From: Pelagomonas calceolata
Lineage: Eukaryota > Sar > Pelagophyceae > Pelagomonadales > Pelagomonadaceae
DNA: 64,000 nt
Direction: 5' to 3'
NCBI GenBank assembly: GCA_918797485.1
Contig: CAKKNE010000001.1
Location: forward strand, 4,402,001-4,466,000
Under the pieces are notes generated by a model, which did not search any database, had not been told where the DNA came from, and saw only the letters and a program-made list of their open reading frames with translations. Position 1 is the first letter of the stretch, and the number at the start of each line of letters is the position of its first letter. Both the position numbers and the translations under genes were made by a program. Positions 48,918-51,031 of the stretch are shown here, piece after piece.

Positions 48918-51031
48918 ATGCAAAAAATCCGCCGCGACCGCCGACCGCCAAAACGCGCGCAGGTCTTCTTCGACATGTCCATCGGCGGCCAGCCGGCGGG
49001 GCGCATCGAGATGACGCTCCGCGCGGACGTCGTCCCGAAGACGGCCGAGAACTTCCGCTGCCTCTGCACGGGCGAGAAGGGTGCCGCGGCCGCGTCCCTC
49101 TTTTCTCAAACAACTCCGTGGCGCAATGGATAGCGTATCAGACTTCGAATCTGGGGGTTGCGGGTTCGAGTCCCGTCGGAGTTGTTTCGCCGATCGCGCG
49201 GCGGCCGTTCAGTATCCGTGGCCGAGTTGGTCTTTCATCTATGATGAACCATGAAGGCGTTGGATTTAAGCCCCAATCTCTTCGGAGGCGTGGGTTCGAA
49301 CCCCACCGGATGCACACATGAACGCCGTCGACGCGACACCGGACGGACTGGAAAATCTGAAGGTCGCGGGTTCGACTCCCGCATCGGTCTCTCCGCGGAT
49401 TGGACTTTGTGCAAGATAGTGTGGCCGAGTGGTTAAGGCGGTAGACTTGAAATCTACTCCCGTAAGGGTCGCAGGATCGATTCTCACAAAATCGATGCGC
49501 GTTCGAACCCTGTCACTATCGCGCACGTTGATGATGTGGCCGAGTGGTCTAAGCTCCTGTGAGCGACCAGAGGCGCTGGTTTTAGGCACCAGTCTTCGGG
49601 CGTGGGTTCGAACCCCACCATCATCACGACAAGTCCTTTCCGCACATTTGTATCCGTGGCCGAGTTGGTCTAAGGCGTTGGATTTAAGCCCCAATCTCTT
49701 CGGAGGCGTGGGTTCGAACCCCACCGGATGCATTTGGACCGATTGGCGCAACGGTAGCGCGTCAGATTCCAGTCCTGAAGGTTACGCGTTCGAATCGCGT
49801 ATCGGTCATAGAGCGCGTGTCGACGGTACGTTCCTACGCAGGCACGGGCCGCTCGGGCAAGCCGCTCTACTTCAAGGGCTCCACCTTCCACCGCGTCATC
49901 ACGGACTTCATGTGCCAGGGCGGCGACTTCACGCGCGGCAACGGTGCCGCGGCCGCGTCCTATGCATATTTGGGGGTGTAGCTCAGTGGCAGAGCGTCCG
50001 CTTTGCATGCGGAAAGCCCAGGGTTCAAACCCCTGCTCCTCCACACACACACAACTCCGTGGCGCAATGGATAGCGTATCAGACTTCGAATCTGGGGGTT
50101 GCGGGTTCGAGTCCCGTCGGAGTTGTTGCTGCTCGACGGCGCGGAGGTGGAGCCTCGCACGCCGAGACCGGGCCGGTCACGCGCGCACGCGCAGGCACGG
50201 GCGGCGAGTCCATCTACGGCGAGAAGTTCGCCGACGAGAACTTCCAGCTCCGCCACACGGGCCCCGGCGTGCTCTCGATGGCCAACGCCGGCCCGGGCAC
50301 GAACGGCTCCCAGTACCGCGGCCGCGTCCTTTCATTCAACTCCGTGGCGCAATGGATAGCGTATCAGACTTCGAATCTGGGGGTTGCGGGTTCGAGTCCC
50401 GTCGGAGTTGTTGCTCGATAGCGTGGTGCGTCTCGACGCACCACGATCTGGACGGACTGGAAATCTGAAGGTCGCGGGTTCGACTCCCGCATCGGTCTTG
50501 CTTGCGGATTGGACTACGATAGTGTGGCCGAGTGGTTAAGGCGGTAGACTTGAAATCTACTCCCGCAAGGGTCGCAGGATCGATTCTCACAAAATCGATG
50601 CGCGTTCGAACCCTGTCACTATCGCGCACAAAGTCCTTTCTGCACATTTGTATCCGTGGCCGAGTTGGTCTTTCGTCTATGACGAGCCACGAAGGCGTTG
50701 GATTTAAGCCCCAATCTCTCCGGAGGCGTGGGTTCGAACCCCACCGGATGCATTTGATACATTTGACCGATGGGCGCCACGGTGGCGCGTCAGACTCCAG
50801 TCCGATGTCAGATTCCAGTCCTCCGAGAGAGCATACAAGGGCAATGTCGACGGTACAATCACACGCAGGTTCTTCCTCTGCACGGTCAAGACCGACTGGC
50901 TCGACGGCAAGCACGTCGTCTTCGGCTCCGTGACCAAGGGCATGGACGTCGTCAAGAAGATCGAGGCCGTCGGCTCGGGGTCCGGCGCGACGGCCAAGCC
51001 GGTCGTCATCACCGACTGCGGCCAGCTCTAA
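48918..51031 (+). CDS. cyclophilin (peptidyl-prolyl isomerase) with tRNA-bearing introns
   Basis: Exons 48918-49080, 49842-49943, 50195-50312, 50869-51031 (546 bases, 181 residues). Joined, they read as a cyclophilin A-type domain: [35 protein letters not shown], then [22 protein letters not shown] (catalytic Arg in [12 protein letters not shown]), [53 protein letters not shown], ending VVITDCGQL. All active-site residues are present. The three introns (761, 251 and 556 bases) start GTGCCGCGGCCGCGTCC, the same, and GTACCGCGGCCGCGTCC, and end in CGCAG; each carries tRNA genes on the coding strand. Confidence 0.93.
49112..49184 (+). tRNA. tRNA-Arg(TCG), copy 1, in cyclophilin intron 1
   Basis: Complete cloverleaf of 73 bases. 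Acceptor AACTCCG pairs with CGGAGTT, anticodon loop CTTCGAA gives TCG, T-loop TTCGAGT. No intron. Identical to the copies at 50053 and 50338. Confidence 0.93.
49212..49314 (+). tRNA. tRNA-Leu(TAA) with 20-base D-loop insertion, copy 1
   Basis: Acceptor GTATCCG/CGGATGC, anticodon TAA in loop TTTAAGC, long variable arm, T-loop TTCGAAC. Compared with the copy at 49650, 20 bases (49234-49253) are inserted in the D-loop. With flanks they fold as TGGT/ACCA (4 bp) with 3-nt bulges CTT and TGA and an inner TCAT/ATGA hairpin. Cutting between bulge bases 2 and 3 restores the intronless sequence exactly. Confidence 0.88.
49344..49390 (+). tRNA. tRNA-Trp-like 3' half, copy 1 (no adjoining 5' half)
   Basis: From the anticodon stem 3' strand (TCTGA) through variable loop, T-arm (GCGGG/CCCGC) and acceptor strand ATCGGTC, ending 49389. 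Preceded by CGGACTGG (49344-49351), complementary to the anticodon region of the tRNA-Trp 5' pieces. A 5' half directly upstream is absent. Confidence 0.6.
49415..49521 (+). tRNA. tRNA-Ser(TGA) with 26-base T-loop insertion, copy 1
   Basis: Acceptor GATAGTG/CACTATC, anticodon loop CTTGAAA, variable arm CCC-GTAA-GGG. Between T-stem base 53 and T-loop base 54, 26 bases are inserted. They form CGCA/TGCG (4 bp) with 3-nt bulges GGA and CGT and an inner 6-bp hairpin TCGATT/AATCGA: an exact bulge-helix-bulge. Removal gives a normal T-arm GCAGG-TTCGAAC-CCTGT. Confidence 0.9.
49530..49626 (+). tRNA. tRNA-Leu(TAG) with 19-20-base D-arm insertion
   Basis: Acceptor GATGATG/CATCATC, anticodon loop TTTAGGC (TAG), T-loop TTCGAAC. 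The D-arm holds an insertion that folds as TGGTC/GACCA (5 bp) with 3-nt bulges TAA and GAG and inner hairpin GCTC-CTGT-GAGC. Single copy; no intronless relative in the window, so the exact ends are uncertain by one base. Confidence 0.85.
49650..49732 (+). tRNA. tRNA-Leu(TAA) without insertion
   Basis: 83 bases, same body as the copies at 49212 and 50650 but with the D-loop joined directly (GGTCTAAGGCG). Serves as the reference for the insertion boundaries. Confidence 0.93.
49737..49808 (+). tRNA. tRNA-Trp(CCA), contiguous
   Basis: 72 bases. Acceptor GACCGAT/ATCGGTC, D-stem GCGC/GCGC, anticodon CCA in loop TTCCAGT, T-stem ACGCG/CGCGT. Anticodon stem closes with an A-C mismatch at 31-39. No intron. 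Confidence 0.85.
49972..50043 (+). tRNA. tRNA-Ala(TGC), in cyclophilin intron 2
   Basis: 72 bases, acceptor GGGGGTG paired with CTCCTCC (one T-T mismatch), anticodon stem CCGC with TGC, T-loop TTCAAAC. No intron. Confidence 0.9.
50053..50125 (+). tRNA. tRNA-Arg(TCG), copy 2, in cyclophilin intron 2
   Basis: Identical over 73 bases to the copies at 49112 and 50338. Confidence 0.93.
50338..50410 (+). tRNA. tRNA-Arg(TCG), copy 3, in cyclophilin intron 3
   Basis: Identical over 73 bases to copies 1 and 2; begins 25 bases after the intron donor, much as copy 1 does in intron 1. Confidence 0.93.
50453..50498 (+). tRNA. tRNA-Trp-like 3' half, copy 2
   Basis: Starts CGGACTGG (50453-50460), then AAA and TCTGA, variable loop, T-arm GCGGG/CCCGC and acceptor ATCGGTC ending 50497. 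Its acceptor, anticodon-stem and flanking CGGACTGG are perfectly complementary to the 5' half at 50765-50804. The discriminator base would be T, unlike the A of the contiguous tRNA-Trp. A perfect 8-bp hairpin (GTGGTGCG/CGCACCAC) lies just upstream at 50423-50444. Confidence 0.6.
50518..50624 (+). tRNA. tRNA-Ser(TGA) with 26-base T-loop insertion, copy 2
   Basis: Same as the gene at 49415 including the identical 26-base insertion; one difference in the variable arm loop (CAA for TAA). Confidence 0.9.
50650..50752 (+). tRNA. tRNA-Leu(TAA) with D-loop insertion, copy 2
   Basis: Same layout as 49212. The insertion differs at several bases, but the changes keep the fold: the inner helix TCAT/ATGA becomes TCGT/ACGA, and TGGT/ACCA becomes TGGT/GCCA (G-U pair). 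Predicted splicing again gives GGTCTAAGGCG. Confidence 0.88.
50765..50804 (+). tRNA. tRNA-Trp 5' half (no adjoining 3' half)
   Basis: Acceptor strand GACCGAT, intact D-arm (GCGC/GCGC), anticodon-stem 5' strand TCAGA and CTCCAG to position 37, then TCCG. Downstream sequence repeats an anticodon-arm-like piece (50808-50822) instead of a 3' half. Together with 50463-50497 it would make a canonical tRNA-Trp with loop CTCCAGA. Confidence 0.6.

Follow-up and report, generated by a model that had tools for sequence, protein, structure and literature searches.

An array of tRNA genes lies entirely within three introns of a cyclophilin A-type gene in the window analysed here, a 64,000-nucleotide stretch (C1:4402001-4466000) of the 32.4 Mb, 8-contig genome assembly of Pelagomonas calceolata. 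The published RCC100 genome consists of six nuclear contigs totalling 32.4 Mb, a 90-kb plastid genome and a 39-kb mitochondrial genome, with duplicated ends on contigs 1 and 5; the paper makes no mention of tRNAs (PMC9481584). Consistent with duplicated ends, B-box matches recur at equal offsets close to where C1 and C5 begin. Run on the window, a finder that allows strict bulge-helix-bulge (BHB) introns recognised 11 tRNA genes, five of them with predicted ectopic introns (two Ser(UGA), one Leu(UAG) and two Leu(UAA)), so that the two intron-bearing genes noted in the preliminary description of this DNA are both genuine members of the set but not the full count. When joined, the exons of the cyclophilin gene encode a full Pro_isomerase domain. 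The features, with introns as predicted from their BHB geometry, are:

48963..51031, + strand: cyclophilin A-type gene (48963 is the first traced base, not an assigned 5' start)
48963-49080, 49842-49943, 50195-50312 and 50869-51031, + strand: cyclophilin exons
49081-49841, 49944-50194 and 50313-50868: cyclophilin introns, holding the whole tRNA array
49112-50752: tRNA array
49212..49314, + strand: tRNA-Leu(UAA) with a 20-nt D-loop BHB intron at 49234-49253, helix TGGT/ACCA
49415-49521, + strand: tRNA-Ser(UGA) gene 1 (Rfam tRNA, 48.2 bits)
49415..49475, + strand: Ser(UGA) gene 1, exon 1, tRNA positions 1-53, ending ...CGCAGG (positions 48-53)
49476..49501, + strand: Ser(UGA) gene 1, ectopic 26-nt intron at site 53/54, sequence ATCGATTCTCACAAAATCGATGCGCG
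49502..49521, + strand: Ser(UGA) gene 1, exon 2, tRNA positions 54-73, beginning TTCGAAC (position 54)
49470..49502, + strand: Ser(UGA) gene 1, whole BHB motif
49470-49473 (CGCA) and 49496-49499 (TGCG), + strand: Ser(UGA) gene 1, 4-bp central helix of the BHB
49474-49476 (GG|A) and 49500-49502 (CG|T), + strand: Ser(UGA) gene 1, bulges of the BHB
49477-49482 (TCGATT) and 49490-49495 (AATCGA), + strand: Ser(UGA) gene 1, 6-bp inner stem of the BHB
49530..49626, + strand: tRNA-Leu(UAG) with a 19-nt D-loop BHB intron at 49552-49570, helix GGTC/GACC
49650..49732, + strand: intronless tRNA-Leu(UAA), equal to the spliced 49212 copy and thus an internal control
50518..50624, + strand: tRNA-Ser(UGA) gene 2, intron 50579-50604 identical to that of gene 1
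50650..50752, + strand: tRNA-Leu(UAA) with a 20-nt D-loop BHB intron at 50672-50691, helix TGGT/GCCA

The two Ser(UGA) genes differ by a single base change in the variable arm, and the Rfam match to each leaves the T-arm insert unmatched. As the preliminary description had it, 26 bases separate positions 53 and 54 in the gene at 49415-49521, and every element that it named is present: the 4-bp CGCA/TGCG helix, the bulges GGA and CGT, the 6-bp inner hairpin and the copy at 50518-50624 with an identical insert. It placed the insert in the T-loop, which is correct as to the T-arm but not as to the loop, the true site being the stem-loop border at 53/54 rather than the canonical intron location at 37/38. 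Its claim that cuts between the second and third bases of each bulge leave a normal T-arm also held, in that the gene without its insert is an ordinary tRNA-Ser with T-stem GCAGG/CCTGT, recognised as such by ARAGORN.

By similarity search we found six Ser(UGA) genes in the genome, on two chromosomes; a search with the Ser/Leu A-box pattern, which is exact and not exhaustive, returned no further nuclear copies. All six carry the intron and its CGCA/TGCG helix, and their exons vary at one variable-arm base alone. The intron loop, on the other hand, drifts in sequence and ranges from 6 to 10 nt in length, while the inner stem stays paired: at one locus (L010) a compensatory double change from C-G to T-A converts TCGATT/AATCGA to TTGATT/AATCAA, and the second bulge reads CT|T instead of CG|T. 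No intronless Ser(UGA) or Leu(UAG) gene was present among those found in this partial survey. Ser(AGA) with inosine might decode UCA, and Ser(UGA) is therefore perhaps not strictly essential.

Strict BHB introns outside 37/38 were identified in 22 of 86 tRNA genes, representing seven anticodons, in a partial survey that covered the window and genome regions picked by B-box and A-box patterns. These comprise Ser(UGA) (6 genes), Leu(UAG) (6), Leu(UAA) (4), Pro(CGG) (3) and one each of Leu(AAG), Leu(CAA) and Val(UAC), with sites including 53/54, the D-loop, 12/13, 13/14 and 27/28. Introns at 12/13 or 13/14 break the Pol III A-box in Leu(AAG), Leu(CAA), Val(UAC) and Pro(UGG) (L038, L049, L099, L097). 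Every Leu(UAG) gene found (6/6) is intron-bearing, and these paralogues keep the helix GGTC/GACC while the inner stem has been replaced whole (GCTC/GAGC, TAACC/GGTTA, ACCC/GGGT). Among Leu(UAA) paralogues one inner pair switches from A-T to G-C or T-A, the change to G-C being the compensatory difference between the inner stems of the 50650 and 49212 copies, and the exons of the intron-bearing genes match those of intronless paralogues. Similarly, spliced Pro(CGG) has the length of its intronless paralogue (L076). Genes for Glu (L057), Tyr (L064), Gln (L075) and Pro(UGG) (L097) apparently contain two or three introns each, some of which pair only once another intron has been removed; recognising these candidates needs looser rules, and they are left out of the 22. 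A scan of viral contigs found no related introns.

The exact geometry is rarely matched by chance. When the letters of the Ser insert were shuffled, a 4-bp in-register helix together with an inner stem at least as long as that observed arose at a frequency of about 5e-6, and the per-gene chance of the exact in-register motif with shuffled intron letters ranged from 5e-6 (Ser) to 2e-3 (Pro). Applied to 19.9 Mb of dinucleotide-shuffled sequence, the tRNA-plus-BHB finder returned a single hit scoring at least 60 (score 62), compared to scores of 68-74 for the real strict-BHB intron genes. After excision ARAGORN recognised 20 of 20 genes with the expected anticodon, while in default mode it found no intact full-length gene among the unspliced sequences and a partial one for Leu(AAG) only. 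For Leu(UAA), Leu(AAG) and Val, folding of the isolated precursor segment gives the BHB as the minimum-energy structure, and for Leu(UAG) the BHB comes close to that minimum. With Ser, on the other hand, another register is 3-7 kcal/mol lower than the BHB (-11.0 compared to -7.6 kcal/mol in the naked precursor segment), and the proposed Ser geometry therefore rests on covariation and exact excision, not on stability.

We consider it very probable that the inserts are genuine BHB introns excised by the tRNA-splicing endonuclease. This reading is supported by the anatomy of the insert, by its fixation in the six Ser(UGA) copies found with covarying stems and drifting loops, by independent exact BHBs in other tRNAs, by an intronless Leu(UAA) gene that matches the spliced product, by the rescue of tRNA folding and recognition upon excision, and by genes encoding Sen2-, Sen34-, Sen54- and RtcB-like proteins. 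In the precursor, exon CGCA would pair with TGCG at the 3' end of the intron, leaving two 3-nt bulges; the catalytic subunits Sen2 and Sen34, with Sen54, would cut after the second base of each bulge, and the exon ends would be joined, probably by RtcB, to give the standard T-arm GCAGG-TTCGAAC-CCTGT. From this we infer that the genes are transcribed, their precursors cleaved and ligated, and the spliced product a working tRNA, Ser(UGA) being one case of what would be a genome-wide set with the same intron geometry.

Two loci match the endonuclease domain PF01974. At one (L029) the N-terminal domain PF02778 is present as well, and its matches to solved structures include Sen2 chains; the other (L030) combines a SAP domain with weaker matches, Sen34 among them; on these grounds we provisionally assign the two as Sen2-like and Sen34-like, respectively. 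A third locus (L150) is Sen54-like and a fourth (L089) is RtcB-like (E 4e-164). Homology points to Sen2, Sen34, Sen54 and RtcB as the enzymes likely to act on the BHB introns. A search with PF09631 gave no match for Sen15, which is weak as negative evidence given an exon-by-exon search for a weakly conserved family.

The setting of these genes is a separate matter that our main reading leaves aside. Like those of the window, tRNA genes at many other loci (L001, L002, L005, L007, L009-L012, L014-L019, L022) lie in spliceosomal introns of protein genes. At many tRNA loci a related motif (e.g. GTACCGCGGCC-GCGTCC) is found upstream at the presumed 5' end of the host intron, and a CGGTAC-type inverted end downstream, shortly before the splice-site AG, which suggests that the host introns resemble introner elements with tRNA genes as cargo. 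A run of four or more T within 40 nt downstream was present at 12/12 genes from seven apparently stand-alone loci (L021, L023, L024, L038, L049, L070, L099) compared to 2/74 others, a contrast that is descriptive only since the seven loci were grouped after the result was seen. The scarcity of T-runs suggests possible Pol II expression from introns rather than from Pol III units. Ser(UGA) and Leu(UAG) lie 8 nt apart (49521-49530) with no terminator between them, and the same order recurs in other arrays; this spacing and conserved order suggest a joint precursor.

Isolated D- or T-arm insertions in eukaryotes, affecting one of many synonymous genes, are usually read as pseudogenes (PMC4090602), and the same arrays do include genuine tRNA fragments (49341-49391, 50447-50498 and from 50768 on), so that the inserts could be hairpins in dead or degenerating copies. 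However, the intron is present in 6/6 Ser(UGA) and 6/6 Leu(UAG) genes found, with no intronless copy found, and the exons are near-invariant and the stems covary. The expected mark of a tRNA pseudogene, decayed exons alongside an intact synonymous gene elsewhere, was not seen for the six Ser(UGA) genes found. We therefore reject this reading, given the intron in all copies found and the covarying stems, and regard it as improbable.

That the insert instead escapes splicing and enlarges the T-arm or D-arm of the mature tRNA seems to us highly improbable: downstream of the insert there is indeed the T54-A58 loop, with a near B-box (CGTTCGAACCC), the hairpin of the insert would lengthen the stem, and the Ser precursor segment reaches its minimum energy in a fold other than the BHB, but retention sits poorly with exact BHBs in seven isoacceptors at varied sites, some of which break the D-stem, and with intronless paralogues alongside the intron-bearing form. 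The inserts might also be removed by a route other than the Sen endonuclease, for example during processing of the host protein-gene introns, as the Ser(UGA), Leu(UAG) and Leu(UAA) genes lie within spliceosomal introns and are without T4 terminators. Yet the same BHB introns occur in stand-alone Pro(CGG), Leu(AAG), Leu(CAA) and Val(UAC) genes followed by strong T-runs, and the inserts do not have GT-AG ends, which makes such a route most improbable. Excision of BHB introns by the tRNA-splicing endonuclease thus remains the reading that we adopt.

Introns of this kind have precedents. Non-canonical BHB introns in nuclear tRNAs of the red alga Cyanidioschyzon merolae were reportedly described by Soma in 2007 and 2013, and nuclear tRNAs of Chondrus crispus are said, in PlantRNA 2.0, to have non-canonical splice sites in the D- and T-regions, like those of Pelagomonas, although Chondrus too is a red alga. 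The C. merolae system resembles that of Pelagomonas in having short BHB introns, lodged in D-arms, anticodon arms or T-arms, in the tRNA genes of a eukaryotic nucleus, and Sen2, Sen34 and Sen54 but no Sen15 found (for Pelagomonas this is weak negative evidence); it differs in that introns interrupt more than 62% of its tRNA genes and some genes are permuted (PMC9602550), whereas no permuted gene is established in Pelagomonas and its paralogue families display intron presence/absence and stem turnover. Non-canonical intron positions in archaea (Crenarchaeota) include 20/21, 25/26, 53/54 and 56/57 (PMC4090602), and the Pelagomonas Ser intron shares with archaeal ones the site 53/54, the 4-bp central helix, 3-nt bulges with 2|3 cuts and a removable inner hairpin, but belongs to a different domain of life with a heteromeric eukaryotic Sen complex and multicopy gene families. 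Nucleomorphs of Guillardia theta and chlorarachniophytes likewise supply eukaryotic cases in which introns occupy non-canonical sites of the D- and T-arms, with excision confirmed by RT-PCR in Guillardia (PMC4090602, PMC3978253); in Guillardia, however, many introns have no BHB that can be defined and some measure just 3 nt, in contrast to the strict motif in a normal nucleus seen here.

In reviews, ectopic tRNA introns are recorded for archaea (at 53/54 among other sites), C. merolae and nucleomorphs, with the caution that a lone insertion in a D- or T-arm usually marks a pseudogene (PMC4090602, PMC3978253, PMC4033280). The preliminary description had named archaea and Cyanidioschyzon as hosts, rightly in each case but incompletely, since cryptophyte and chlorarachniophyte nucleomorphs belong with them (PMC4090602). 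Its statement that no description from stramenopiles was known holds in the open-access text searched, where we found no report of ectopic tRNA introns in a stramenopile, diatom or Aureococcus. In the tRNAscan-SE 2.0 paper the search for non-canonical introns is set out for archaeal tRNAs, and eukaryotic tRNA genes are said to have one intron at most (PMC8450103); introns of the present kind may have escaped notice for this reason.

The kind of intron is already known, then, and the lineage and extent appear to be new, Pelagomonas being apparently the first stramenopile found with tRNA genes interrupted in this way. We tentatively propose, as a single joint claim that is possible but falls short of probable, that this stramenopile nucleus has a broadly disrupted tRNA set in which BHB introns are still being gained, lost and remodelled among paralogues, that its Sen enzyme operates in BHB mode and may, like that of C. 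merolae, lack Sen15, and that many tRNA genes, including all those for Ser(UGA), lie in introner-like spliceosomal introns and are released from Pol II transcripts, not Pol III units. Until now, ectopic BHB introns in eukaryotic tRNAs have been regarded as peculiar to red algae and reduced nucleomorphs. Their spread through the tRNA genes of Pelagomonas, which ranks among the ocean's most abundant eukaryotic algae, would imply that an ordinary eukaryotic Sen complex is capable of BHB-guided cuts at varied sites, and that needed tRNA genes can escape standard annotation in such genomes. Paralogue families with and without introns and with remodelled stems would offer a direct view of the birth, change and loss of tRNA introns.

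Two further classes of tRNA-like sequence accompany these genes. A 3'-half fragment resembling elongator Met, with an intact B-box and an unrelated 5' side, occupies the same place in several arrays (49341-49391 and 50447-50498 in the window, and L007); a permuted or split tRNA was considered, and because no matching 5' half lies nearby it is kept as a fragment. Genes with stop anticodons (CUA, UUA) are found at L070, L072 and L046, the latter two apparently inside protein-gene introns, and are candidates for either suppressor tRNAs or tRNA-derived repeats.
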